A DNA stretch of 20,416 nt from a virus: IMG/VR virus record IMGVR_UViG_3300029787_004959, positions 1 to 20,416 of that record; one strand, 5' to 3'. Made by a program: the position numbers and the translations under genes. Positions 1-13,257 of the stretch are shown here, in pieces. The notes beneath the pieces are model-generated. The model was not told the origin of the DNA. It searched no databases and saw only the letters and a list, made by a program, of their open reading frames with translations. How positions within the stretch are numbered: the stretch's first letter is position 1; the number at the start of each line of letters is the position of its first letter.

Positions 1-651
1 ATTGCGTGAACAGAAATAGGCAGGGGCCATATTATAGCCTGTGTACTTTTTATCTTTATAATCATCTCCTAAAATTCTTACGTCAATTTTTAATTCATTT
101 ATAAGAGATTCAAGATCTTCTTCCGTTGAGTAAATAACCACCTCATCAACATATCGAATTGATTCTAAAATACTTTTTCTTTCCTCTACAGATAGAACTG
201 GTTTTAACTTTTCTGGGCGTTCCTCATTGGGATTTTCGTGAAGAGCGACTATAAGATAGCTGCACACATTCTTCGCTTCCTTCCACATCTCGATATATCC
301 TGGGTGTATGACATCAAAGGCTCCTGCTACCAAACCTTTAACAGGAATTTCCTGTCTCTTCCAGTCATCAATGTGAATGCATTTATCATCAATTAATAAA
401 TCGAATGTTGGTTTTTTATTTGTTATAAGTTGATGGTACTTAACTCCCCAGGTTTTTAATTGCTCATGAGTAAAATCAGTCCAATCTATTCCTGATGAAG
501 CTCCTCGGGCGGTAAAAAATAAAAGGGTATTCCCCTCATCGTACAACTCATTAATTCTATCTATAACAATACTATCAGGTATAGAATAATGATAGTTATT
601 ATTCCCAGGAGTTGTGCAAATGGTCCCGTCGATATCAAAACAATAAATCAT
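1..651 (-). CDS. HAD phosphatase-nucleotidyltransferase fusion (3' end beyond window)
   Basis: Partial gene; 217 codons are visible from an ATG at 651, and the frame is open to the window edge. Residues 1-100 form a HAD-family hydrolase domain of the kind found in capsule clusters: motif I FDIDGT (5-10, nucleophile D6 and D8), motif II FFTARG (45-50), Lys in NKKP (78-81), motif IV LIDDK (86-90). Residues 105-217 form a cytidylyltransferase-like nucleotidyltransferase: GAFDVIHPGY (110-119, HxGH-type site with Tyr for the second His), RPEKLKP and LGDDYKDKKYTG (194-205), as in TagD and HldE-type enzymes. It is the last visible gene of the glycan run; its ATG overlaps the stop of the isomerase gene (ATGA, 648-651). 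Next to a GmhA-like isomerase and an HddA-like kinase, it could supply both the heptose-bisphosphate phosphatase and the nucleotide transfer steps. That pathway role is inference; the two domains are clear. Confidence 0.85.
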   Translation of the reverse strand, partial: MIYCFDIDGTICTTPGNNNYHYSIPDSIVIDRINELYDEGNTLLFFTARGASSGIDWTDFTHEQLKTWGVKYHQLITNKKPTFDLLIDDKCIHIDDWKRQEIPVKGLVAGAFDVIHPGYIEMWKEAKNVCSYLIVALHENPNEERPEKLKPVLSVEERKSILESIRYVDEVVIYSTEEDLESLINELKIDVRILGDDYKDKKYTGYNMAPAYFCSRN

Positions 652-1157
652 AGAATTGAGTGTAAGATAACCTGATGAAGGCACTCTACGATGCCGAAAC
701 TCTCTGAATCTACCCAAAAGTCTACTGCTGCAGTATCCGCAAAAGCTTTACGTACTTTATTCTCTTCCGAAAACCCTGTTAGGAGAACATACGGAATACT
801 AGATAGATTACAAAAATCGGCACAATTGTATATGTTTATAGAATTACCAGAAGAAGATATCAAGATCACCAAGGTGTTTTTATCAGAAAACTCCTTTAAG
901 AAAATCTTATACGCATTCTCCATTCCATAATCATTAATATAACACGTTAGTCTGGAAGGATCGGAGAAGGTAAAGGCTTCCTTTTTTAAAAATTTGGTGT
1001 AATCCTGACTGATGTGAGAAGCAATTGAATTACTACCTCCATTCCCTATAATTATAATCTTTTTATGTCGATCAACTACTTGTTTTAGTAAATCAACTTT
1101 GTCTCTATCCACTTTTTTTAAGTTCTGCTCAAAACTATTCAAAAAATCAAACTTCAT
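648..1157 (-). CDS. GmhA-like phosphoheptose isomerase (SIS domain)
   Basis: A 169-residue single SIS-domain protein. GNGGSNSIASH (38-48) and SSSGNS (101-106) are the two phosphosugar-binding loops of the GmhA/DiaA branch. The C-terminal helix ECLHQVILHSIL carries Glu and His in the arrangement seen in GmhA, whose C-terminal His is catalytic. GmhA converts sedoheptulose 7-phosphate to D-glycero-D-manno-heptose 7-phosphate in the cytoplasm. It is slightly shorter than typical GmhA (about 190 residues). The start overlaps the end of the GHMP kinase gene by 11 bases, and the stop overlaps the start of the HAD-nucleotidyltransferase gene. Those neighbours match the next pathway steps, which favours heptose over another SIS substrate. 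A non-catalytic DiaA-like role is the alternative, less likely here. Confidence 0.8.
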   Translation of the reverse strand: MKFDFLNSFEQNLKKVDRDKVDLLKQVVDRHKKIIIIGNGGSNSIASHISQDYTKFLKKEAFTFSDPSRLTCYINDYGMENAYKIFLKEFSDKNTLVILISSSGNSINIYNCADFCNLSSIPYVLLTGFSEENKVRKAFADTAAVDFWVDSESFGIVECLHQVILHSIL

Positions 1158-2064
1158 ATGCCTGCACTCCTTGGTTGTCTATGCTTATTGGGATTGTTCC
1201 TGCTGGGGTATATCCTTTTTTAGAAAGGATCAGGAAGTACCCTCCATTCCCTGCCCCACAAAGCCTGTGGGCTAAAATATTAGAGTCCTTAGATAAACGA
1301 TTATCAATATTTTTTAACATATTATCCCCCAGCATTTGAGGAAGGCTTTTCTTTTTGCTTTCCCATCCTAACCCTACAAGATTAATAAACTCTTCAAAAT
1401 CATTATCGTTTATACTCCTATCCATCAAAAGCATTATGTCTAGGATACCCATCCTATCACTTTTAATAACTTTCTCCAAAACAGTAGTAGACTCTCTAAC
1501 AACTCCCGTGTATAAAAGATGCATATCAAAATTAGAAAACATCTCTGAACTTAAATAACATACTTTTGGATCTTCGTCTTTATAAAACTCTAACTTCTTG
1601 AACGACCCTAAACCACAACCATACGGATCTTGATATCCAGTATACCTATTAAATGTTCTTTCTATATCCAAAGCTAACTTAACAATATCAAACGTGGACA
1701 TCTCTTTATTGCATAGCTTTGCCATGGCTGCGACCGCTGCTACTGTATACGAAGAGGAAGAAGCTAATCCTGTGCCTTGAGACGCGGAATCTGTATTAAA
1801 GGTCATAGTAATGGGATCAGTAGGGAAGCGTTTCATTACTTCTCTTGCGATATCATTTCTTATGTCTGTGACATCTTTAACTTCTTCCCTCTCTGAATAA
1901 TTAACAATGTACTTATCGGTATTGTTTTTATGAACCGTAATATAAGTATAAAGAGTAGATGGGAAGCTAATTACTCCTCCGTAACCATTGGAGTCTATGA
2001 AGTCTTGCAGGTCTGTGGATCCTCCTGCGAGCGATACGCGGAGAGGGCATTTAGCAAATATCAT
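1147..2064 (-). CDS. HddA-like sugar kinase (GHMP family)
   Basis: A 305-residue GHMP-superfamily kinase of normal length. Motif 1 is PLRVSLAGGSTD (7-18). Motif 2, the ATP phosphate loop, is GTGLASSSS (97-105). QDPYG (145-149) holds the likely catalytic Asp, and motif 3 is CGAGNGG (269-275). The GGSTD and QDP patterns are those of D-glycero-alpha-D-manno-heptose 7-phosphate kinase (HddA) and its relatives, which make heptose 1,7-bisphosphate. It overlaps the radical SAM gene upstream by 14 bases and the GmhA-like gene downstream by 11, so all are probably co-translated. Substrate assignment rests on family resemblance and on the isomerase, phosphatase and nucleotidyltransferase that follow. 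A fucose-type kinase of the same family cannot be excluded. Confidence 0.82.
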   Translation of the reverse strand: MIFAKCPLRVSLAGGSTDLQDFIDSNGYGGVISFPSTLYTYITVHKNNTDKYIVNYSEREEVKDVTDIRNDIAREVMKRFPTDPITMTFNTDSASQGTGLASSSSYTVAAVAAMAKLCNKEMSTFDIVKLALDIERTFNRYTGYQDPYGCGLGSFKKLEFYKDEDPKVCYLSSEMFSNFDMHLLYTGVVRESTTVLEKVIKSDRMGILDIMLLMDRSINDNDFEEFINLVGLGWESKKKSLPQMLGDNMLKNIDNRLSKDSNILAHRLCGAGNGGYFLILSKKGYTPAGTIPISIDNQGVQAYEV

Positions 2065-3472
2065 GTGATTTTATAGTTGAAATCCTATCATCTTGAGTTA
2101 GTTGATTAGTATCCCCCAAATTTGAAAGCTCATTCATTTGTGAAGTTCCAGCCCAAGAGAGAAGACGCTCGATAATTTTCTTCTCAAAAAAGAAATCAAA
2201 GAAACGCAGTTTCCACCTAAGCAAGGCTAATGCCTCAAAAGGCAAAATTAGTAATCTTTTTAAACCTGGGAAATTTCTATCAGTCTTATCTCCTTTCCCA
2301 CTATGAAACCTCAAACCCCCAATATGATAAAGGTTGCTTGCTCGCTTGTCGTAGGTCTGATGTAAACTATAATCTGACCAAGCCTCCATTGTTGTAGGTA
2401 GCTTAGACTTGTCTACTAAATCATACAAAGGGCTGCCTGGAAGAGCGGTATATGCATAGAAGTTCTGTGTACAATTACCCCCAGCTTTTTTGTGGATTTC
2501 ATGAAGCCTTTCTGCTTGATCAAGGGTTTCATTGACCTCTGCGGTTGTCTCCGTAGGGAAACCCGTGATCCAGTAATAAAGAGGCCAGATACCGTGATTG
2601 GCTAATGCCTCAGCGCACTCAATCTGCTCATCTTTAGTAATGTCTTTTTCTGTTAACTCCAGCATCCTTTCGCTGCCTGTCTCCATTCCGATAGATATGT
2701 GCTTAATTCCCATCTCCGCCATCAACCTAGCATCCTCGTCCTTAATCTGATGAGCGCGAATAGAGGGTCTGTATTCAATCCCATTATCCCATAGAAATTT
2801 AACCAGATCTAAAATTCTTTTCATCTTCCCAGGCCAATCATCTCCATGCTCTAGCTTGTTCATTCCTACAGTATCTCGCAATCTGATAATATCTTCTTTC
2901 CATCTGTCGAGATCTACCGATTGCCAAGTCCTTTCAAAGAACTGTTGGATATAGCAGAAGGCACAACGAAAAGGACACCCTCTACTGGTAAGTAGAATAG
3001 TATCGCCTGATTCGGCTGATTTCTCAAAGTAATGAATTGTGTGATCTGAAACAGGGCTTACCATGTCCTCTGTTTTTAGCATTTTTCGATCAACAATGGT
3101 GTTTACAGGCGCTTCAAGTGCTTCTAACATAGCAACCTCACCTTCGGACTTTACAACTACATCAACGTAATCCTCAACAATACACTGCTCAGGGACTGAG
3201 GTTGGGTGGATACCCCCGAAGATAGTTTTTTTACCATGCTCCTTGGCTAACTTCATATACCTTATTGCGCCCTTTAACTGATAGCCTGTCATAGAAGAAA
3301 TTCCTACCACATCGGGCCAATCCATATCTGGCTCAGGGTCCCAACGCTCATCAAAGTAACGAATCTCATGCCCATGCTTCCTCATGGCCTCTCCTACATG
3401 TAAAACAGGAAGAGGCGGTGACATTTGCGGTGATTGAACAGAGGCAATAGGATATATAAATAAAATTTTCAT
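2051..3472 (-). CDS. B12-binding radical SAM enzyme
   Basis: A 473-residue protein. The N-terminal part (1 to about 125) looks like a cobalamin-binding Rossmann domain, with VVGISSMTGYQ (55-65) and FGGIHPTSVPEQC (85-97). The radical SAM core has the CX3CX2C cluster motif CPFRCAFC (C166, C170, C173) and a downstream IGMETGSERML strand (261-271). Such class B enzymes use a [4Fe-4S] cluster, SAM and often methylcobalamin to methylate unreactive carbons, or act like BchE. The C-terminal about 100 residues contain an aromatic and basic stretch (LRWKLRFFDFFFEKK) that could touch the membrane. It starts in an ATGA overlap with the GT4 gene. Inside a glycan cluster it most likely modifies a sugar or lipid carrier; the substrate is unknown. 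It needs a low-potential electron donor, and a ferredoxin is encoded elsewhere in the window. Confidence 0.85.
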   Translation of the reverse strand: MKILFIYPIASVQSPQMSPPLPVLHVGEAMRKHGHEIRYFDERWDPEPDMDWPDVVGISSMTGYQLKGAIRYMKLAKEHGKKTIFGGIHPTSVPEQCIVEDYVDVVVKSEGEVAMLEALEAPVNTIVDRKMLKTEDMVSPVSDHTIHYFEKSAESGDTILLTSRGCPFRCAFCYIQQFFERTWQSVDLDRWKEDIIRLRDTVGMNKLEHGDDWPGKMKRILDLVKFLWDNGIEYRPSIRAHQIKDEDARLMAEMGIKHISIGMETGSERMLELTEKDITKDEQIECAEALANHGIWPLYYWITGFPTETTAEVNETLDQAERLHEIHKKAGGNCTQNFYAYTALPGSPLYDLVDKSKLPTTMEAWSDYSLHQTYDKRASNLYHIGGLRFHSGKGDKTDRNFPGLKRLLILPFEALALLRWKLRFFDFFFEKKIIERLLSWAGTSQMNELSNLGDTNQLTQDDRISTIKSHDIC

Positions 3473-4575
3473 GATGCTAAATTATATAGGAGTGTTGCGA
3501 CTTTTTCTTTTACACAACTATATGAGTATAAATTATTATACCTATCTTTAGTTTTTTGGCTCAGTCTTTTATACATTTTTTTATCTGTTCGTAAGGCCTC
3601 CATCGAGGAGATATACTCTTCTAAGGAGGAGCAGAAAAATCCGCAGTCTGCGATCTGCTCCTGGTGTCCGTTATTCGTTCCAGGACAGCTAATAATAACT
3701 TTACCATGTGCCATTGCCTCTACTATAGCAGTAGAACATACTTCTCCATCTAACCTTGAATGAGCATAAACGTCAATACCATGAAGGAAACTATGAATTA
3801 ATGATTTATGTGCAGTTGAATCCAAGAATACAACTCGATCTCTTTTATCCTCAGGCCAGGATCTAACTAAATCCCTATGACGTTGGCTTCCTCCCAAAAT
3901 TACCATATAATTACTAGGATCTTGTAATTGAGAAAAAGCCATAAGAGATACAGGAGAAAAAATAGAAGGATCATCTCTTTGGTGCATACCGAAAACAAAA
4001 GCATCCTTAGGAATCTTATACTTTTGCCTAAAATTAGTCGGGTAAGTCTCTGGTATTTCCACAATAGGAGGCACAATCTCTAATTTAGATTGATTACCCC
4101 CATTTGAGAGCCATCTTTTAGATTGCCACTCGCAAATTAAAAGTGATTTAATGATATTATCTTGATCATAAACGTTATCCCCATGAACACTATATACGGT
4201 CTTAACATTCCTGAACTGTGAGGCAGGGTAGTCAGCTTTTCCATTGCCTGCTATAAAAAGTAAATCGTATTGATTTTCGTCAAACTTCTCAAAGATATCA
4301 GAATCTTGCCAAACTTCACCTTGGGGAGCAGTAGGATCATAATTTTTATATCCTACCTTCACTTTAATAAGATTTATTCCTGCATTCTTTAGTGCTTCTT
4401 CTCGTAAAGGATCGTTAGGTGGGTGAGTCCAATCAACACCAACTATGGGGGCTGAGTTGGTATAGTAATAATCAACCTCATGGCCTTCAGCATTTACAAG
4501 AAGAGCTATAGACTGAAGATATCTTTCGACTCCTCCAATACCTAAACCAGCAAATTTTAAAAAAGCAATTTTCAT
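3469..4575 (-). CDS. GT-B glycosyltransferase, family 4-like
   Basis: A 368-residue GT-B fold protein. The N-terminus reads MKIAFLKFAGLGIGGVERYL, a standard GT4 donor-free domain start with the GGxER loop. The second domain has GMHQRDDPSIFSP (196-208) and the retaining-GT signature around EVCSTAIVEAMAHGKVI (278-294), where E278 and E286 are spaced as in the EX7E motif that binds the sugar nucleotide. There is no signal peptide or membrane segment, so it probably acts at the cytoplasmic side on a carrier or protein acceptor. The sugar and acceptor are not predictable. Start and stop both sit in ATGA overlaps with neighbours. Confidence 0.85.
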   Translation of the reverse strand: MKIAFLKFAGLGIGGVERYLQSIALLVNAEGHEVDYYYTNSAPIVGVDWTHPPNDPLREEALKNAGINLIKVKVGYKNYDPTAPQGEVWQDSDIFEKFDENQYDLLFIAGNGKADYPASQFRNVKTVYSVHGDNVYDQDNIIKSLLICEWQSKRWLSNGGNQSKLEIVPPIVEIPETYPTNFRQKYKIPKDAFVFGMHQRDDPSIFSPVSLMAFSQLQDPSNYMVILGGSQRHRDLVRSWPEDKRDRVVFLDSTAHKSLIHSFLHGIDVYAHSRLDGEVCSTAIVEAMAHGKVIISCPGTNNGHQEQIADCGFFCSSLEEYISSMEALRTDKKMYKRLSQKTKDRYNNLYSYSCVKEKVATLLYNLAS

Positions 4576-5291
4576 TTAGAGTTGAACCCCTTCAGTTCCA
4601 GTAACTGTTCTTTTATTGAAGGCGTACTAGTATTTCCGACCAAACATTTATTTATTTTAATTTTATCGTTCTCAAGAATCTTGATATCTTTACCATAAAC
4701 ATCCTTCATAATAGTTAACAAGTTAAACTTAGAGATGCATTCGCTGTAAGGGATGACAACCTCGCTAAAGCATTGAAAATCTCTAATTAAATCCCAACAA
4801 ATTTTAGCCCATTGCAACGTAGTAATCCCGTTCCACATTTGATGCGTATATCCATAAAGCTCGTTCTCAGAGGCCAAAAACCACTCTAATAACCCTTGCT
4901 TACTTGTAAGCTCTGTGCCTATGATGGAACATTTAATGCTTTTTGTTCGTTGGCCTTCTCGCATAAAATAATCAGCGGCTTGTCTTTTTGATGCCCCATA
5001 AAGGTCTTCGTCAGATTCACAGTCAGTCCCAGCATGGATAACACTACAAGATGCATTTTGATCTATCCAAATAGGTAATTCAAAATTAATATCAAAGGTG
5101 TTCGTGCGCTGGGGGATGGCTCCTATGCAATTAACAATCACATCTCCTGAAAATTCTATTAAATAATTTTTAAACTCAGAGCTAGGCCATCTAGTCTCAA
5201 CCGTCTCTACATGACACTCGGGAACAGAGGAAAGGTAGCGAAGAACTGTACTTCCTAACATACCTCGATGACCTAGAACGCAAACCCTCAA
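4572..5291 (-). CDS. RmlD-like NAD(P)-dependent sugar reductase
   Basis: A 239-residue short-chain/extended SDR protein. The N-terminal Rossmann loop is GHRGMLG (7-13), typical of RmlD, followed by DVIVNCIGAIPQR (50-62). The YGASK motif (98-102) supplies the catalytic Tyr and Lys. It is shorter than most RmlD proteins (about 290). The usual Ser/Thr-rich STD strand reads GTD (88-90). The start codon is TTG at 5291, overlapping the TGA of the upstream dehydratase; no later Met precedes the essential GxxGxxG loop and a strong ribosome site lies in front, so TTG is well supported. Next to a 4,6-dehydratase-like enzyme it probably reduces the 4-keto sugar intermediate. Product sugar unknown. Confidence 0.8.
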   Translation of the reverse strand: MRVCVLGHRGMLGSTVLRYLSSVPECHVETVETRWPSSEFKNYLIEFSGDVIVNCIGAIPQRTNTFDINFELPIWIDQNASCSVIHAGTDCESDEDLYGASKRQAADYFMREGQRTKSIKCSIIGTELTSKQGLLEWFLASENELYGYTHQMWNGITTLQWAKICWDLIRDFQCFSEVVIPYSECISKFNLLTIMKDVYGKDIKILENDKIKINKCLVGNTSTPSIKEQLLELKGFNSK

Positions 5292-6238
5292 GATAGAACC
5301 CCCTTCTCACATAAAAAGGAAGAGACCTCATCGCATGATAGTATTGAAGTTTTTGAAGAGTATGACCATGCTTCATTGTTTATGATATCGTCTGTAATCA
5401 TATAGTATTTATCAAACTGCTTAGAGCGCAAAGACTCCTCTAGGCTAATCATCTCTTCATGTATCTTTTCTCCAGGTCGAATGCCCACATAGTCAAGGGG
5501 TAATTGTCTTTTATAAGCTTTACTAAGCGTAGTAGCCAAGTCCACAATCTTCAAAGATTTTAGCTTAGGGACCACTATTGCCCCATGAGATTGAGGGTGA
5601 TTAAAAGCCCAATCAATTAATTCCACGGACTCATCAAGGCTAATCAAAAACCTAGTCATTCGTTCATCAGTTACTGGCAATGAGGTAGTGCTCTCGTCTG
5701 ATAATAAAGATTTAAAGAACGGGAGTACAGAACCTGTAGACTCTAAGACATTTCCATATCTGCACAAAACAACTTTTGTGTCTTTCTGCTTATTAGCAAA
5801 ATCAATATACAATCTCTCAGATATGGCTTTGCACATTCCATAGACATTGACAGGCTTACACGCCTTGTCTGTAGAAATAAACATTAACGTCTCGATTTGA
5901 TGATTACTTACCTGTAAACACTCCAAAAGATTTTCATGCCCCAAAATGTTAACCTTAACGCTTTCGTAAGGATTATCTTCACAAACAGGCACATGCTTTA
6001 ATGCTGCTGTATTTAGAACCACATCGGGCTTATACTCATTTAAGGCTTTTAGCAAACAATCTTTCTCTTTAACATCGCCTATCTGGTAATCGACCGTGGG
6101 GTACTCCCTCTTCATATTCACATGTTTATGCTCATCACGGGAAAAAACTAAAATATCATTATTTTTATGATATCTTTTGGTTAGAGTCCTGCCTAATGCG
6201 CCAGTCCCTCCTATAATCATTATCCTTTTACCAATCAT
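5288..6238 (-). CDS. CapD/PseB-like nucleotide-sugar 4,6-dehydratase
   Basis: A 316-residue extended SDR protein. The NAD loop is GGTGALG (10-16); then LNTAALKHVPVCEDNP (75-90), the hallmark of the FlaA1/CapD/PseB/WbjB group. STDKA (122-126) and YGMCK (133-137) give the catalytic Thr, Lys, Tyr and Lys. Members convert UDP-GlcNAc to a 4-keto-6-deoxy sugar, some with C5 inversion. It has no N-terminal membrane part, so it is the short soluble type. It precedes the RmlD-like reductase with a TTGA overlap, which suggests a two-step route to a 6-deoxy HexNAc-type sugar. Annotated start ATG is at 6238; a second Met seven residues in (MIIGG) is possible. Confidence 0.85.
   Translation of the reverse strand: MIGKRIMIIGGTGALGRTLTKRYHKNNDILVFSRDEHKHVNMKREYPTVDYQIGDVKEKDCLLKALNEYKPDVVLNTAALKHVPVCEDNPYESVKVNILGHENLLECLQVSNHQIETLMFISTDKACKPVNVYGMCKAISERLYIDFANKQKDTKVVLCRYGNVLESTGSVLPFFKSLLSDESTTSLPVTDERMTRFLISLDESVELIDWAFNHPQSHGAIVVPKLKSLKIVDLATTLSKAYKRQLPLDYVGIRPGEKIHEEMISLEESLRSKQFDKYYMITDDIINNEAWSYSSKTSILSCDEVSSFLCEKGVLS
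5299..5305 (-). promoter_or_regulatory. Ribosome binding site for TTG-start reductase
   Basis: On the minus strand the bases read AAGGGGG, 7 nt before the TTG at 5291. This Shine-Dalgarno-like site lies inside the 3' end of the upstream dehydratase gene and supports the non-ATG start. Confidence 0.6.
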
Positions 6239-6611
6239 CGTTAACCCTAACCTCTTTTAAATACAGTTTAGTATTACCCTTGCATTTAATATACGGCAAA
6301 GGGTACGGATGCTGTAGACATCGCACCTTATTAAAGATCTCTTCAGCGGTAAAATTGTCGAAATCCTCTAAAATTATTTCACTCATTTCAGGAGTTCTGC
6401 GCTTGAAAAAAGTTGCTTCCTCATGACTCTGTGGAACTGCGGTACAGTCTCCCTCTAAGTAGGATCTAATGCCTTCAGAACCTACTAATACGATGTTATT
6501 AAAAATGCTTTCTAAGTCCCCAACTAAAGAAAATTCTTTTTGATATAAAATAGGACCAGTATCAATACCTTCATCATCAATGTGAGGAGAGAGTATTAAC
6601 TTTTTATTCAT
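6228..6611 (-). CDS. Truncated formyltransferase with a PIG-L-like N-terminus
   Basis: A 127-residue ORF starting at ATG 6611; an in-frame GTG at 6620 is possible but has less support. From residue 15 on it matches the C-terminal half of formyl-transferase domains: GIDTGPILYQ (15-24), then a TFFKRR-like AT-FFKRRTPEM stretch and NKVRCLQHPYPLPY, as in Fmt/ArnA-type or sugar formyltransferases. The part that binds formyl-tetrahydrofolate is missing. The first 14 residues, MNKKLILSPHIDDE, instead look like the start of a PIG-L/LmbE deacetylase, with its PHxDDE zinc motif. The ORF is therefore probably a deletion fusion of two once-adjacent genes. It is intact in frame but unlikely to keep either full activity. 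It overlaps the neighbours by 8 and 11 bases. Confidence 0.7.
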   Translation of the reverse strand: MNKKLILSPHIDDEGIDTGPILYQKEFSLVGDLESIFNNIVLVGSEGIRSYLEGDCTAVPQSHEEATFFKRRTPEMSEIILEDFDNFTAEEIFNKVRCLQHPYPLPYIKCKGNTKLYLKEVRVNDDW

Positions 6612-7419
6612 TACATTCACTCAACACGGGTCTGTATTGTAGCCACTCACCATCCTGTTTAACAGGAACGCCTCGATCCTGCGTCAAGTAACAGAACCAT
6701 TTCGTTCGTGATTCACCAGCGACAGGATACTTATAATCAACACCAAGAACCGAGTCTTTCCAAGACATCCAGGTAGAACTTATATCTTCTCTCCTCGGCC
6801 CAACTAGATTATCATAATTAGGGTAAGATTCCTCAGACAAAACCTTAGTAATAGAAGAGTTTTGTTGCCTCCATTTTGCATTAAAGTGAGGGAAAGATTT
6901 TGCACCATTTGCTCCATCTTTAGGAACAAGAGGCGATATCTTCTCAGGTTGGTTTAGTCTCCTGGCTTCTAGGTATTCGGACTCTTGTGACTCATAATAC
7001 GCTAAATTAGCTAATCGGAGACGTATAATAAAATCATCATCTTCCCAACCACCACCGTAAAATCTCTCATCCCACCACCCAATTGTGCGATACAACTCTT
7101 TAGTCGATCCAAAAAAACCGACGCTATACTTGGATGCAGCGGCAAAACCCTCCTCTAGTAATTCAACAATATGAATAACATCCTCTGGCTTTGGAGTGAC
7201 ACGATCATTCATCCAAATTACAACCTCCGTAGGGGAGGAAGTAATAGAATCATTTATCATTTCTGAAAACGAAGGATAGGTCTCTGGATGTCTGTCAATT
7301 CGATTGTTCCAGTAAACCTTAAATACATCATTTAATGGTTCGAGTAGCTTCATCTGCTTATCAACAGTTTCACGCTCCCATCCACAATTGCAACACAATG
7401 TTATCTCTTTAGTTTTCAT
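6604..7419 (-). CDS. GT-A glycosyltransferase-like protein
   Basis: A 271-residue protein with GT-A features. An IWMNDRVTP segment (68-76) takes the place of the usual DXD strand. A later GWWDERFYGGGWEDDDF block (114-130) resembles the acceptor-side W-x-E-D-D-D motif of GT2/GT7/GT27-type enzymes, where Asp or Glu is the catalytic base. The remaining 140 residues are rich in Trp, Tyr and charged residues and have no recognised domain. There is no signal peptide or membrane helix. It overlaps the 302-residue putative transferase upstream by 11 bases. Sugar specificity unknown; fold assignment is by motif only. Confidence 0.65.
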   Translation of the reverse strand: MKTKEITLCCNCGWERETVDKQMKLLEPLNDVFKVYWNNRIDRHPETYPSFSEMINDSITSSPTEVVIWMNDRVTPKPEDVIHIVELLEEGFAAASKYSVGFFGSTKELYRTIGWWDERFYGGGWEDDDFIIRLRLANLAYYESQESEYLEARRLNQPEKISPLVPKDGANGAKSFPHFNAKWRQQNSSITKVLSEESYPNYDNLVGPRREDISSTWMSWKDSVLGVDYKYPVAGESRTKWFCYLTQDRGVPVKQDGEWLQYRPVLSECNE

Positions 7420-8317
7420 TTTTTAGATGTTCCTCCAGCGTTGAAACCATATCTTTACCTAATGCTTCCTCCACACCAGTAGTAAGTAACCAATCTCTTT
7501 GTAGAAGAAGAAGGTCTTTATATGCTTCAGAAGGTTGACCGTTTGGAAGGAGACGAGTTATAAGTGTTTCTAATTCCTCCGCGCTAGAATAAGAAGGGGC
7601 AGGTAAATTGTGAGGACTAGCAGTAGAAGGCTTGTCTGCTAAATCTCTAAATAGTAACAGAGAACCAGCCGCCATAATTTCTAAATGCCTTAAAGAATCC
7701 CAGGATCCTTTCCGACAAGTTAGTCCAAACCAAGAACGAGCCATGTCATCATAGTACTCCTCTTCGTCATCAAAAACGTACAACTGTCGAGCGGGTATGC
7801 CTAACACTTGCGGTCCAAACCTTGAGTACGGAGGCGCAGTGCTTTGAATAAGTTGAGTTTTATTAGTAAGGTCAATGGGTTGGATTTTACTAGAAGGTAT
7901 AGAGAATCTTAAAGGATATACCTCTGAATGCTCTTCAAATAGTTCATGCTTAAAACAAGGAGTCTTAACAATATCAGAGTCATCATGCCCATCAATATAA
8001 ACAACGGGTTTGTTTAACGATTCTAACTCTGGATAATAATCGTTAACGTAGTTATTTTTGTTCACAAACCCATAAACAACTACATCAACATCAGAAAAAT
8101 CACGGTCCTTTACCTCTGGAATAGGGTCGTATAAAGTAAACCCCTTACCATGAAAAGAAGGTCGGTCAACCTCAGAGAAGTCACCATATAGAATTTTTTT
8201 GCGTGGGTAATCAATACAATTATCCCCCAAAGCAGACCTAAGGGCTCTTAAACACATTACTTCTTGAAAATCACCCTGCTTGGTAGGATCTTTTATTGTG
8301 ACATATAAAACCTTCAT
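7409..8317 (-). CDS. Putative GT-B-like glycosyltransferase, unassigned family
   Basis: A 302-residue protein that I do not recognise with certainty. The start MKVLYVTIKDP is like the first strand of a GT-B Rossmann domain, and DVDVVVYGFVN (about 76-86) looks like a second core strand. The late part has YYDDMARSWFGLTCRKGSWD followed by RHLEIMAAGSLLLF, resembling the alpha/beta/alpha donor site of GT-B enzymes such as the CgeB-like and Glyco_trans_1_2 groups, with Glu in EIMAAG at the place of the nucleotide-ribose ligand. It lies between two other transferase genes with a TAATG junction at 8317 and an 11-base overlap at the other end. Role in glycan assembly is inferred mainly from position. 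Confidence 0.55.
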   Translation of the reverse strand: MKVLYVTIKDPTKQGDFQEVMCLRALRSALGDNCIDYPRKKILYGDFSEVDRPSFHGKGFTLYDPIPEVKDRDFSDVDVVVYGFVNKNNYVNDYYPELESLNKPVVYIDGHDDSDIVKTPCFKHELFEEHSEVYPLRFSIPSSKIQPIDLTNKTQLIQSTAPPYSRFGPQVLGIPARQLYVFDDEEEYYDDMARSWFGLTCRKGSWDSLRHLEIMAAGSLLLFRDLADKPSTASPHNLPAPSYSSAEELETLITRLLPNGQPSEAYKDLLLLQRDWLLTTGVEEALGKDMVSTLEEHLKNEN

Positions 8318-9066
8318 TAAGAGATATCCTTTAAATAAAACTCATCTGTTCTCCATGTCTGACCGCCAGCCCAATGCCTAATTTTAGTATTCTTTTTCTC
8401 AGACCGTACTATATTATATCTTTGTAGCATTTGCTCTTGAGGAGTTTCCGCTTCTTCGGCTAAAAGAGTAGTATTCCACTCTGGTCCTTTAATGTCTACA
8501 TGCTTCTCTAACTCCTCAAGCGAGTAATGATCTGCATCCCATAACTCCGAGTGGTAACCGTTATTTGGGAGAGATGGAAAAGGAACCCAACTATGTCGCT
8601 TAATCCCAGCTAAAAAATACCAAGAACATTGCTCCCTAAATTCCTGCCAGAAGGGATGATCTTTATACTTTTGGTATCTCTCTTCTGACATAAGCTTATC
8701 AATCATTTCAGTGGACCAATCATTAATTTTAATTCCATAGTTCCCCATGCAATGAGTGTTACCATTATCGATGGAGTAAGTCCAAGATTTGCCTTGATAA
8801 TAATCTTCGCTACCATCCACAATGACCATATCAGCATCCAAATTTACAACAACATCGCCTTCTGATAATTCGTTCTTTATCATGTCCTGGAGAAGAGTAA
8901 ACTTCCACCAAGTTGGATTCCCTCGAAAAGGCTCTTGCGCTCGATAAACTCTATACTCATAGCCCCACTTATCTGCATACTGTTTATTCTTTGGAGAATA
9001 ATAATTATCAAAAATGCTCTGACGATGATCCGAATAATCCGCTATACTAAATAATATCTTTTTCAT
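8317..9066 (-). CDS. DXD-type GT-A glycosyltransferase
   Basis: A 249-residue protein starting at ATG 9066; a TTG 12 bases further upstream extends the frame but lies inside the preceding gene. Features follow the galactosyltransferase GMA12/MNN10 (GT34) pattern: an N-terminal strand MKKILFSIADYSDHR, a PTWWKFTLLQDMI segment (51-63), then GDVVVNLDADMVI (70-82) with the metal-binding DXD (D77-A-D79). A late NNGYHSELWD segment and a C-terminal IRHWAGGQ with His could bind metal or the nucleotide. It has no membrane anchor, unlike the eukaryotic GT34 enzymes. The gap to the FkbM gene stop is only 2 nt. Donor and acceptor unknown. Confidence 0.7.
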   Translation of the reverse strand: MKKILFSIADYSDHRQSIFDNYYSPKNKQYADKWGYEYRVYRAQEPFRGNPTWWKFTLLQDMIKNELSEGDVVVNLDADMVIVDGSEDYYQGKSWTYSIDNGNTHCMGNYGIKINDWSTEMIDKLMSEERYQKYKDHPFWQEFREQCSWYFLAGIKRHSWVPFPSLPNNGYHSELWDADHYSLEELEKHVDIKGPEWNTTLLAEEAETPQEQMLQRYNIVRSEKKNTKIRHWAGGQTWRTDEFYLKDIS

Positions 9067-9068
9067 GT

Positions 9069-9647
9069 TTAATGCCAATAGTGTAATTCTATCCCTCGGC
9101 TTTCAATCTCCCTTCTCAAATAAGACTCGTTAAATTTTTCAACTCTTAAATGGTTATGCCATTCCACATATAATACATTAATTAAATTAATCGTATTGTC
9201 TTTAATTAGTTTGTCAAGAACTTCATACTCTGCTCCTTCAATGTCTAATTTAACCACTACGTGATCTTCTTCTGATACGTTCTCTAATAAGAACTTAGAG
9301 AAATCAATAGAGTCTACCTGTCTGGCGTTTTTTATAATATCATGCTTAATGTAGTCAGGCTGTAGCCAGTTATCTCCTAAGATATTAGTAGCGCCACCGA
9401 AATCGTCAATCCCTTTTTCATGATCTAATGTTAAAGCAAGTTTACCTTCTGAAATCCAAACAGCCTTGTTTATAAGTTGGATTGATGGATGGTTTTTGTA
9501 TAAGGGTTTTTCTTTTAACAGAGAGGATACCTCTTCCATAATTTCAAAGCAAACTATATCCCAAGTGTCATCCATGCCTCGGGACTTGTAAATTGAATGT
9601 AGCCCTTGTCCTTGATTGGAACCGCAATCTAAAAATACTTTTCTCAC
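9069..9647 (-). CDS. FkbM-family methyltransferase
   Basis: A 192-residue SAM-dependent methyltransferase. Motif I is FLDCGSNQGQG (5-15). The FkbM hallmark VKLDIEGAEYEVLDKL (132-147) is complete, followed by a LYVEWH strand. FkbM enzymes O-methylate sugars and other small acceptors; in surface polysaccharide clusters they cap or decorate glycans. Length is typical of compact FkbM domains. It starts in an ATGA overlap with the exostosin-like gene. Methylating a sugar of the phage-directed glycan is the likely role, inferred from context. Confidence 0.85.
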   Translation of the reverse strand: MRKVFLDCGSNQGQGLHSIYKSRGMDDTWDIVCFEIMEEVSSLLKEKPLYKNHPSIQLINKAVWISEGKLALTLDHEKGIDDFGGATNILGDNWLQPDYIKHDIIKNARQVDSIDFSKFLLENVSEEDHVVVKLDIEGAEYEVLDKLIKDNTINLINVLYVEWHNHLRVEKFNESYLRREIESRGIELHYWH

Positions 9648-10507
9648 ACCAAACTTGTTGAAGCCTCAACAACCTCCAATATTTTATTAAATACACTCTT
9701 AATAGCGAAGAAATCACCGTAGACCTCTTGTGCATAATTTATCATAGCCTCACGCTTCCATTCGTAGGAGTTAATAATTTCTTTTATGTTGGGGAGTTCC
9801 TCTGGAGTCATTCTAATAATAAGATCATCCCATTCTACCTCCTCTTGCCAAGGTAACCAATGCCTATTACTTATATAAACAGGGACCGCTTTGTACTGAA
9901 ATGCCTCATATAGTCTATAACTTGTAGGTCCATAACCTCTAGGGCATAACATGTATTTAGATCTTATTGAGATATCTTCAAAAGCTCTAAACCTTTCTTC
10001 TGTTATTTTCTCTGACCAGTGAGGCTGCATAGATAAAGCATATCCATGGACCTCTGGTGGACAGCATTGTGCCATTTGGGCTCGAATAGGGTGAGTGTAT
10101 GATCCTATAAAGGAGGCTGTGATGTCTTTCTCCTTTTCCTCATATTGTGGGACTTCGGATACAACTAAAGGGACTGGAATAGTAGCTAAATTATTACCCC
10201 CTGCACCAAAAACTAATGTATCGGGAGGCAAAGATTCGGTTGGTGCATCATCATGGGTACAAACACAATAGTATTTTTTACTTGGATCTAGCAGGTGAAG
10301 CTTTTGTTGAATAATCGCTTGCTTTTGTTCTTTGTATGCATTAGTCCAAAAAACAGGGATTAAGTACCTATCCCCACACTTCTCCCCATGCTCAACAAAC
10401 ATCTCCTCAAGGTAGGGTCCTTTATGATAAGAAGGATATGTAGGGTACACAGCACCCTTCTTGTTTATGTCTGCGAATAGCCTATTAATTTTTTGCTGAT
10501 AACTCAT
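9644..10507 (-). CDS. Exostosin-like (GT47) glycosyltransferase
   Basis: A 287-residue protein matching the exostosin C-terminal GT-B domain: FIGSYTHPIRAQM (133-145), then SKYMLCPRGYGPTSYRLYEA (183-202) and KAVPVYISNRHWLPW (206-220), the conserved run that ends in a Leu-Pro next to the donor site. The family is best known from heparan sulfate and plant cell-wall synthesis but also occurs in bacteria and large phages. No signal or membrane anchor is present. Its ATG lies 23 bases inside the end of the gene before it, and its stop overlaps the FkbM gene start. Donor sugar unknown. Confidence 0.8.
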   Translation of the reverse strand: MSYQQKINRLFADINKKGAVYPTYPSYHKGPYLEEMFVEHGEKCGDRYLIPVFWTNAYKEQKQAIIQQKLHLLDPSKKYYCVCTHDDAPTESLPPDTLVFGAGGNNLATIPVPLVVSEVPQYEEKEKDITASFIGSYTHPIRAQMAQCCPPEVHGYALSMQPHWSEKITEERFRAFEDISIRSKYMLCPRGYGPTSYRLYEAFQYKAVPVYISNRHWLPWQEEVEWDDLIIRMTPEELPNIKEIINSYEWKREAMINYAQEVYGDFFAIKSVFNKILEVVEASTSLV

Positions 10508-11318
10508 TTACAGTAATTGCCACATTATGCAGTGTTGGGGTTTGGGATATAAAATGACGCATCACATTATTAAAGTTAGTACATGGAGGATATGCAGGAG
10601 AGTTTGGGTTATCTAAAAAGTGTGTATGAATACTTACCACATTGGATCCTAAGTATTTTAACTCCCCATTAAATGTAAAGAAATCATTAAACCTATGTTG
10701 TGTGCGCTCATTATTGAATCTCCACCACCCCATATTATAGGTTATTGGAAATATTCCTACATTGTAACTTCCAGTCTCAATCACCTTAGTCATTGGCTTT
10801 TGCTCATACATAAACTCACCGCTAAAGGTAAGATCTTTCCAGGCTTTTAGATAGTCTTTAGATTTTACATACACAAACCCAACATTATAAACCCCCCACT
10901 GCTCATCTAGCTGGGGGCTTTGCTGCATATGAGGACTTACTATTGCATCGACTGAACTTTCCATAGATTTGATCATATCCTCATCAAACCGATTGAAGAA
11001 AACTATGTCGCAATCAAGCATTAGTACCTGACCACAAGCCTCTAAAGCATACTCAGCGGCTTCAAACTTAAAATTGATAACATCTGAAAAATTCTTCTGA
11101 CTTTGTGCGTCACCCCACTGCTCCCCTTCTTGTAGACAATCAGGATAGGTCTTTACATTTCCCCCTAATTCTTTTAATGCTTCCTCTATGTCAGGGGAGC
11201 AAACCAAGTGCCACTCATAATCATAATGTGTGTTGTATGCATGAAATGAAGAGTATAGAAGTTTAAACTCTTTGAGATACTTAGTTGTTACTACAGAAGA
11301 TAATCCGAATTTTTTCAT
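10485..11318 (-). CDS. DXD-type GT-A glycosyltransferase (nucleotide-diphospho-sugar transferase)
   Basis: A 277-residue GT-A protein. A first strand (FGLSSVVTTKYL) is followed by the DXD site ALEACGQVLMLDCDIVFF (91-108, D102-C-D104), with a conserved preceding KFEAAEYAL helix. WGVYNVGFVYVKS (about 141-153) is the NVG-type acceptor loop seen in GT8-like and related families. A C-terminal VVSIHTHFLD supplies the His that commonly ligates the metal. No membrane segment. Overlaps the DUF4422-like gene upstream by 4 bases and the exostosin-like gene downstream by 23. Specific sugar unknown. Confidence 0.72.
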   Translation of the reverse strand: MKKFGLSSVVTTKYLKEFKLLYSSFHAYNTHYDYEWHLVCSPDIEEALKELGGNVKTYPDCLQEGEQWGDAQSQKNFSDVINFKFEAAEYALEACGQVLMLDCDIVFFNRFDEDMIKSMESSVDAIVSPHMQQSPQLDEQWGVYNVGFVYVKSKDYLKAWKDLTFSGEFMYEQKPMTKVIETGSYNVGIFPITYNMGWWRFNNERTQHRFNDFFTFNGELKYLGSNVVSIHTHFLDNPNSPAYPPCTNFNNVMRHFISQTPTLHNVAITVNELSAKN

Positions 11319-12061
11319 GCGTAATGAGGGTTGTGAAATAAAGGCTCGCTACAAGATGGGTTGTATGGAACAATGCCTTTCAAAAGATACCAAACGAGAA
11401 AAAGTCTCTCCATGAAGTAGCCTGTTGCTTTTTGATTGCTAACCGTGCCGTACTCCGTCTGCATTTTGTAATAGTCAGAACCGTGGACATTTTGAAGGGA
11501 CCATTCGACCATAGGCCAGGAAAATTCCATGAAATCGTTGAATAAATCCTTCCGCATTACCCAATAATTGGCAAAGAACCCTGTGTGTGTCCCTTTCCAT
11601 TTTGCAGGCATTGAGTACCCAAAACGCTGTAAAACATCAGCCATGTATTCATTCAAGCCAGGATGGCAGATTTCAGTCTGCCTATGCAAGGAGATAGGAA
11701 CGCCTCTGCCTTGAATCCCGTTATCAGGCACAAACAACTCGTACTGACCCCAAGCAACAACACCCCACTTATCTAATAAATCCTGAACTTGCTGTTTTGA
11801 TTCAAACTTAAAAGGGAACTTCTCAAGCTGGCGGTGGGAGGTAGTACCAATCCAAGTATCCTGGTCGTAGTCTGAGTTTCGCCAGTGCCACAGAAAGCAA
11901 GCATACTCAGTTAACTGCAATCGAGTTCCTGCATCCTCTAATTCAGGACACTCAACAAAAAGAAGGGGGTTTACCTCAGGCTCTAGACCGAACCCTGTAT
12001 ACGGCTCCTCTAAGAATAGATTATTCATATCCTTAACGAAAGGGAAGCACTGATAGATCAT
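11315..12061 (-). CDS. DUF4422-like putative glycosyltransferase
   Basis: A 248-residue protein with the layout of the DUF4422 family. The early segment DTWIGTTSHRQLEKF (68-82) corresponds to the family's DYIGLCHYRRY strand. ANYWVMRKDLFNDFMEFSWPM is the middle motif, and the late TGYFMERLFLVWYL (213-226) matches the family's GYLSERL block. DUF4422 proteins are found in polysaccharide clusters and are regarded as glycosyltransferases, but few have been tested. Rich in Trp and Tyr. It lies in ATGA overlaps with both neighbours, the GT4-like gene before it and the GT-A gene after it. Confidence 0.65.
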   Translation of the reverse strand: MIYQCFPFVKDMNNLFLEEPYTGFGLEPEVNPLLFVECPELEDAGTRLQLTEYACFLWHWRNSDYDQDTWIGTTSHRQLEKFPFKFESKQQVQDLLDKWGVVAWGQYELFVPDNGIQGRGVPISLHRQTEICHPGLNEYMADVLQRFGYSMPAKWKGTHTGFFANYWVMRKDLFNDFMEFSWPMVEWSLQNVHGSDYYKMQTEYGTVSNQKATGYFMERLFLVWYLLKGIVPYNPSCSEPLFHNPHYA

Positions 12062-13257
12062 ACCAGTTCAAAACCTTCGATTTTTTTGAGAAGATCGTCC
12101 CGCTTTAGCATTGTAAAAGTATCCTTGTATAGTTTTAGGCGCTGCCCTATAACTTTATTCAGATCAAAATACTCCTGAGTAATATCAAACAAATTATTAC
12201 CCATCTGCTCTCGATGTTTTTTATCTTTTATTACTTTAGTAAGCACTTTAACCCAATCGGTTTTTGATGCCTTAGGATCTAGTAAATACCCAGTCTTGCC
12301 ATTAATGATGGTCTCATCATAACACCCAACATTAGAAGCAATCAAAGGAACTTTATACCTACCACACTCAGCAACTTTAATTTCAGACTTAGAGTCATTA
12401 AACGCATTCATCTGAAGAGGTGCTATAGCTATGTCAATATTTGCAAAAATCACACCATACTGATCAGAAGGGAGAGCGCCATGAATATACCAGTTCTTAG
12501 CTCCTCTGAACCCTTGAGTTAAAGTGCGTTCATAATTGTCCCACACATCTAACTGCCAATCCTCTTTAGAGTTGTTTGGGTCTTTAGGGGGCTTTCCAAA
12601 AAAGTGCCACTCCACGTTTTCTCGACCCACACGCTGATTGACAAGGTGAGGAATGCCAGCGAACTCTTTAACGTCTTCTTCGTGATGGATGCCGCCAGCC
12701 CAGCCTACGCGAACTAACCTTTTTCTCCGAACAGGAACTTTTGGGTGATTCCAATTTTCTAAATTATAATCAATGGCATTCTTTGCTACAGCTAAAACAC
12801 CAGAGCAATAATCTTTTATTCTTTCAGCAAATTTTCTTTGGGTTACTGTCACTAAGTCAGCATTTGCGTATAAGTACTTAGTTAGCTCCGATAAACCTCG
12901 GTCTTCATATACAGACTTTAGCCTGTGGCCTTCATACAACTCTGTAAGAAGGTCATCTGTATCAAAGTGAACAAATTTACCAAACTCCTTGGCTTTGCCT
13001 ACAATCCTGGCTGTATATGGACCCCCATAATTATGAATGTTTTGGGTCATCACAATATCAGCCCACTTCATATCAGCAAAGTCCCAATCTTCAATCCATT
13101 GACCGTTTTCAATGTTAAGACCCAAAGGGTTTTCATTAAACTTTATTTCAATAAGGTCTGGGAACTTTTCCGCTAATTTTGCAAAAGGAGCCCAAGCCCT
13201 GTAATAGGAACAACCACCCTGATTTGCGGGTGCGATTAAAATCTTTAACTTATTCAT
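12058..13257 (-). CDS. GT-B glycosyltransferase, family 4-like; first gene of the glycan run
   Basis: A 399-residue GT-B protein. The start MNKLKILIAPANQGGCSYYR fits the N-terminal Rossmann domain, and VRVGWAGGIHHEEDV and WHFFGKPPKD are second-domain strands. The donor site is around FNDSKSEIKVAECGRYKVPL followed by INGKTGYLLDP, as in retaining GT4 enzymes, though the first Glu of EX7E is replaced by Ser-Lys-Ser-Glu spacing. It is the first gene of the long glycan run. Its ATG is only a few bases after the U-tract of the terminator, with no clear Shine-Dalgarno site in front, so expression may depend on an overlapping promoter, on read-through, or on weak initiation. Confidence 0.78.
   Translation of the reverse strand: MNKLKILIAPANQGGCSYYRAWAPFAKLAEKFPDLIEIKFNENPLGLNIENGQWIEDWDFADMKWADIVMTQNIHNYGGPYTARIVGKAKEFGKFVHFDTDDLLTELYEGHRLKSVYEDRGLSELTKYLYANADLVTVTQRKFAERIKDYCSGVLAVAKNAIDYNLENWNHPKVPVRRKRLVRVGWAGGIHHEEDVKEFAGIPHLVNQRVGRENVEWHFFGKPPKDPNNSKEDWQLDVWDNYERTLTQGFRGAKNWYIHGALPSDQYGVIFANIDIAIAPLQMNAFNDSKSEIKVAECGRYKVPLIASNVGCYDETIINGKTGYLLDPKASKTDWVKVLTKVIKDKKHREQMGNNLFDITQEYFDLNKVIGQRLKLYKDTFTMLKRDDLLKKIEGFELV

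Follow-up and report, generated by a model that had tools for sequence, protein, structure and literature searches.

A three-gene phage cassette that probably encodes a four-activity NDP-heptose module of its own clade

Results and Discussion

Organisation of the locus

The window, that is, the whole stretch of DNA analysed, corresponds to the complete IMG/VR record IMGVR_UViG_3300029787_004959 (20,416 bases). On its minus strand, 16 glycan genes follow one another without a break in a chain (13257 to 1) in which neighbouring genes overlap by 1 to 23 nt. The last three genes form the 3′ end of the chain and encode, in this order, an HddA/WcbL-like GHMP sugar kinase (305 aa; 1147..2064, minus strand), a GmhA-like ketose-phosphate isomerase (169 aa; 648..1157, minus strand) and a fusion protein (minus strand) composed of a HAD phosphatase domain that is not of the GmhB type (352..651) and a TagD/HldE-like nucleotidyltransferase domain (1..351), the C-terminus of which is lost at the contig end. 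Kinase and isomerase genes overlap by 11 nt, isomerase and fusion genes by 4 nt. A sequence-only reading had placed three overlapping genes at 1-2064, and these were recovered.

The 13 co-directional, overlapping genes upstream of the cassette (2051..13257, minus strand) include glycosyltransferases, a PseB-like dehydratase, a GT47-like protein, an FkbM methyltransferase, a B12-binding radical SAM protein and a partial formyltransferase-like protein. No clear transmembrane segment was found by hydropathy in the 16 chain proteins, and none of them was recognisable as a flippase, polymerase or lipid-carrier transferase. GT9 heptosyltransferases were absent from the Pfam matches of the window genes searched.

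The window was assigned to a phage because genes for a gp32-like ssDNA binding protein, a DnaB-like helicase and the large subunit of ribonucleotide reductase lie on the same contig (13708..20084, minus strand). Searches with the helicase and the ribonucleotide reductase returned no cultured phage nearby (best identities about 33-35%).

Family assignment and the sugar kinase

The families proposed from sequence alone (GmhA-like isomerase, HddA-like GHMP kinase and HAD-nucleotidyltransferase) were borne out by matches far above chance. The profile and structure comparison that had been suggested as a check gave a mixed outcome: GmhA was the closest fold of the isomerase and HddA the best model of the kinase, but none of the three proteins reached an NCBIfam equivalog cut-off and the HAD domain was not GmhB. 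The motifs said to be visible for all four activities were confirmed for the kinase and the HAD domain; the transferase reads HPGY, not HxGH, and in the isomerase D and E take the place of the E and Q of the GmhA zinc site.

The kinase matched Pfam GHMP_kinases_N above the cut-off (5.5e-11). Its best NCBIfam model was HddA (1e-24, residues 2-280), although the equivalog cut-off of that model was missed (87.6 bits vs 600), and its top PDB matches were solved HddA/WcbL proteins. The activity of WcbL is abolished by mutating R13, D22, S118-120, Q162 or D163 (PMC4691232). Counterparts of all these essential residues were located in the window kinase: R9 (nt 2040-2038), D18 (2013-2011), S102-S104 (1761-1753) and Q145-D146 (1632-1627; all minus strand). 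These WcbL-type residues are not heptose-specific and do not by themselves prove a heptose substrate.

Isomerase and its metal site

The isomerase matched the NCBIfam GmhA models (1e-14) below their equivalog cut-off (best 54.6 bits vs 265). Its predicted structure (pLDDT 96) places it within the GmhA/SIS fold, with GmhA as the closest fold (Z 23.8, rmsd 1.6 over 165 residues), followed by the GmhA-like DiaA (Z 22.5) and other sugar isomerases (about 17).

The zinc ligands of GmhA are His, Glu, Gln and His (H64, E68, Q175 and H183 in B. pseudomallei); they are stated to be completely conserved in GmhA orthologues, and their mutation lowers activity (PMC5705639). The set aligned to this H-E-Q-H site in the window is H48 (nt 1016-1014), D52 (1004-1002), E158 (686-684) and H166 (662-660; all minus strand), so that two of the four residues differ and, judged by the alignment, the protein falls outside GmhA in the strict sense. 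Isomerase chemistry at the altered site is plausible, because all four residues are still potential metal ligands. H-D-E-H was found in 69 of the 71 viral isomerases compared, the other two having H-E-E-H; among more distant cellular SIS proteins some have H-D-E-H and others H-E-Q-H.

HAD domain of the fusion

By its sequence, the N-terminal half of the fusion belongs to the HAD phosphatase superfamily. It matched PDB 9iqw_A ('Capsule biosynthesis protein'; 3e-14) and PHROG 1238 (1e-25), and its catalytic D-x-D, T, K and DD motifs are conserved across the alignment of relatives. Among the matches listed by the fold search, most concerned the transferase domain, and the HAD domain was barely covered. 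The GmhB identity that had been proposed did not hold: the GmhB and HAD-IIIA models gave no GmhB match for the fusion, whereas the true GmhB of a Prochlorococcus-type chromosome (L158, described below) scored 157 bits with TIGR00213.

The cyanophage genes labelled 'phosphoheptose isomerase' in P-SSM2 (PSSM2_311; L003:7086-7430) and S-CAM3 (L004:7077-7397) match the HAD phosphatase and not SIS. PHROG 1238 bears the same label, and caution is advised, as some cyanophage genes named in this way encode a HAD phosphatase.

Nucleotidyltransferase domain of the fusion

The transferase domain passed the gathering cut-off of Pfam CTP_transf_like (PF01467; 2.5e-13, 50.8 bits vs 21). It also matched NCBIfam TagD (7.4e-20) and RfaE domain II (2.9e-17), missing the equivalog cut-off of the former (71.3 bits vs 165.4) and the cut-off of the latter (62.8 bits vs 181.5, scored on a domain that the contig end cuts short); the complete relative from phage SynMITS9220M01 scored 59.2 bits with RfaE domain II. 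A structure model of another complete relative (L012) showed the fold of this superfamily and was nearest to CTP:glycerol-3-phosphate cytidylyltransferase (TagD; Z 17.7), with HldC at Z 14.4. On account of this nearest fold, CTP is our best guess for the nucleotide. An HddC-type transferase, as proposed earlier, was not supported: no such domain was found in the module, and the transferase is of the HldE/TagD type. The C. jejuni CDP-glucitol cytidylyltransferase was also considered and set aside, as it falls in another Pfam family.

In transferases of this fold, the HxGH motif is regarded as essential. At this position, the window protein reads HPGY (nt 306-295) and so departs from the signature of HldE domain II, HldC and TagD. 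HxGY was present in 51 of the 61 transferases of loci with both kinase and isomerase, and once outside such loci, in a protein fused to a kinase (L005); HxGH occurred 8 times inside and 36 times outside (Fisher p 2e-17, a value that overstates the association, because the contigs are related). A histidine in the next strand (VALH) accompanied HxGY in 27 of 31 cases and HxGH in 3 of 21, and may compensate for the missing second histidine of HxGH. The C-terminal STT motif lies outside the window, because the contig end cuts the fusion; in relatives, the residue before STT is mostly Y or W, and R in one.

The closeness of the L012 fold to TagD rather than HldC, together with stand-alone relatives of the transferase domain in many phages that have neither kinase nor isomerase, would suit a reading with no single pathway, in which the HAD-transferase makes a TagD-like CDP-alcohol or CDP-polyol and the kinase and isomerase serve another route. 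We consider this rather improbable, since the transferase is fused to different partners in different phages (the HAD domain; a kinase in huge phage LR756511; an isomerase in L172 and L208) and HxGY hardly occurs outside loci that have both kinase and isomerase.

Recurrence among phages

A scan with the isomerase profile identified 182 viral stretches, from which 80 IMG/VR contigs were kept for counts; these figures are contigs and not independent events, because some are near-identical. The kinase was present in 66 of the 80, and all five parts (kinase, isomerase, HAD domain, nucleotidyltransferase and a GalE-like epimerase) lay within 6 kb in 40, the usual order being kinase, isomerase, HAD-transferase, epimerase. 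A scan of viral contigs for the kinase only gave no matches, the patterns being too specific. The identification of the downstream epimerase of relatives as HldD was rejected, as its HldD scores were below those of GalE and under the cut-off of the model itself.

The complete genome of phage SynMITS9220M01 (MT408532), in which heptose genes were noted in 2020 (PMC7378029), has the kinase, isomerase and HAD-nucleotidyltransferase in the same order, followed by a GalE-like epimerase. The proteins are 42-50% identical to those of the window. The other glycan genes of this phage differ, and its HAD-transferase is annotated only as hypothetical.

Cellular counterparts

The full cassette was also found in Prochlorococcus single-cell genomes (L089 and L090, and also L091, where the contig end interrupts the kinase) and in L158, a contig of 581 kb from a cyanobacterial genome of 1.7 Mb, where a GmhB gene above the NCBIfam subfamily cut-off lies a few kb from the cassette. 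Ordinary chromosomal genes were recognised elsewhere on the L158, L089 and L090 contigs from translations read by eye. Phage contamination was rejected as the source of the Prochlorococcus copies, as the contigs hold ATP synthase, CTP synthase, Ffh and Era (by the same reading). The trees place SynMITS9220M01, along with three viral contigs, in a group with the cellular copies, and the window among other viral sequences. The cassette is shared with picocyanobacterial surface-glycan islands and was probably derived from them.

The occurrence of the whole cassette in Prochlorococcus chromosomes raises the reverse question, namely whether the window is a bacterial contaminant or holds a decaying cassette. 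This is very improbable, given the phage-type gp32, replicative helicase and ribonucleotide reductase on the contig, the same cassette in a complete phage genome, and open frames and motif residues kept across dozens of contigs.

In other cyanobacteria, an isomerase of the H-D-E-H type adjoins HldE-like kinase/nucleotidyltransferases (L155 and L157; weaker in L153); in L159, an isomerase with one metal ligand changed lies beside an HldE-like protein. These loci often carry a related epimerase. Among the independent lines of evidence, it is this pairing of isomerase and HldE-like protein that speaks most strongly for heptose, and it bears on an unlikely alternative in which the same four steps act on another sugar: the SIS protein with its altered metal site would make a pentose, hexose or octose aldose phosphate, which would then be phosphorylated at C1, dephosphorylated and activated. 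Such a substrate would agree with H-D-E-H in place of H-E-Q-H in nearly all viral isomerases, with the kinase residues tested, which fail to discriminate between heptose and other sugars used by GHMP kinases, and with a HAD domain that is not GmhB. It is opposed by the HldE-like partners, by HddA as the best kinase model and by the top solved folds, all of which are GmhA or the GmhA-like DiaA.

A separate observation concerns Prochlorococcus SCGC AAA795-J16 (L115:7929-8852), which encodes a HAD-SIS fusion; its SIS half resembles classical GmhA.

Comparison with known systems

The module shares a SIS isomerase and an HddA-type GHMP kinase with the GDP-heptose route (GmhA-HddA-GmhB-HddC), but its HAD domain is not of the GmhB type and its transferase belongs to the HxGH superfamily (here HPGY) instead of the HddC type. 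With the ADP-heptose route (GmhA-HldE-GmhB, and HldC) it has in common the SIS isomerase and the transferase superfamily of HldE domain II and HldC; the differences are a kinase of the GHMP and not the PfkB type, a transferase fold nearer to TagD and the fusion of HAD to transferase. The glycan clusters of cyanophages P-SSM2 and S-CAM encode relatives of the transferase and HAD proteins. A SIS isomerase was not detected in them, their 'phosphoheptose isomerase' being a stand-alone HAD protein, and the P-SSM2 kinase is of the PfkB type, unlike the GHMP kinase of the window.

NDP-heptose enzymes occur across kingdoms, viruses included, and some make CDP- and UDP-heptose (PMC11573728). They follow the same four-step logic and provide a precedent for viral heptose enzymes and for the use of CTP. 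The STTR5 motif (GRSTT), reported as a hallmark of NTP promiscuity (PMC11573728), is mostly absent from the relatives of the window transferase. Viral heptose enzymes are already known, and marine phages commonly carry glycan genes (PMC7029224). Four points are new here: the four-step logic comes packed with a fusion of HAD and transferase, a kinase of the HddA type is paired with a transferase of the HldE/TagD type, two active sites have changed in a coupled manner, and it has become apparent how widely the cassette recurs.

Proposed pathway

Assignment of the three genes to a four-activity NDP-sugar pathway is well supported by families, folds, catalytic residues, recurring gene order and varied fusions. 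Of the heptose pathway read from the sequence, this part stood, and the heptose itself gained indirect support; the zinc ligands and the GmhB match did not bear it out. Heptose is the likely substrate, as suggested by the isomerase fold, the HddA model and the HldE-like neighbours in cyanobacteria; it is not demonstrated, because the isomerase lacks the strict GmhA ligand set and the HAD domain is not GmhB-like. The exact sugar and nucleotide named here are tentative, because two active sites depart in a consistent way from those of the textbook enzymes. On balance, the genes probably form a four-activity NDP-heptose module of its own clade that feeds a glycan; the heptose substrate, CTP, the order of the steps and the use of the glycan are what we infer.

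In such a module, the GmhA-like isomerase would convert sedoheptulose 7-phosphate into an aldoheptose 7-phosphate, the HddA/WcbL-like kinase would phosphorylate C1, the HAD domain would strip the C7 phosphate and the fused nucleotidyltransferase would form NDP-heptose by transferring a nucleotide, for which CMP derived from CTP is the most likely candidate. The role of the HAD domain as 7-phosphatase is less certain, because a true GmhB is present in the Prochlorococcus island. In relatives, the GalE-like epimerase of the next gene would probably change one stereocentre. Glycosyltransferases of the operon could then use the sugar in a glycan of the host surface or of a virion component; on the host surface, it might change a receptor and exclude competing phages. 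A role in innate immune signalling had also been raised; nothing in the analysis supports it.

The clade would be marked by the remodelled H-D-E-H metal site together with the HxGY transferase. More tentatively, it is conceivable that these marks define a separate sugar-nucleotide lineage, mobile between phages and picocyanobacteria, that makes a new activated heptose through the H-D-E-H isomerase and the transferase with Tyr for the second His, perhaps CDP-heptose from an HddA-type heptose 1-phosphate.

If the NDP-heptose module is real, many phages would be fully equipped to supply themselves with an activated heptose, independently of host sugar-nucleotide genes and starting from sedoheptulose 7-phosphate, an intermediate of the Calvin cycle and the pentose-phosphate pathway. 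The lipopolysaccharides of marine Synechococcus analysed so far are reported to be without heptose (PMC4515613), so a phage could add a sugar that its host does not normally display. The consistent, coupled changes in the two active sites single out residues for experiments and allow members of the clade to be recognised.

Further observations on the glycan genes

The B12-binding radical SAM protein (2051-3472) lies inside the glycan chain, directly upstream of the kinase. The formyltransferase-like protein (130 aa; 6228-6620) matches methionyl-tRNA formyltransferase-type models at about 141-242 only; its N-terminal part therefore seems absent. The PseB-like dehydratase and the adjacent u239 (4572-6238) recur together in the cassette-bearing phage loci L008 and L013. 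Phage contig sequence in L014 and L015 (1-4568) carries the cassette and shares the GT47-like protein, u253, u302, a GT7-like protein and u277 with the window, which suggests a larger conserved glycan cluster.
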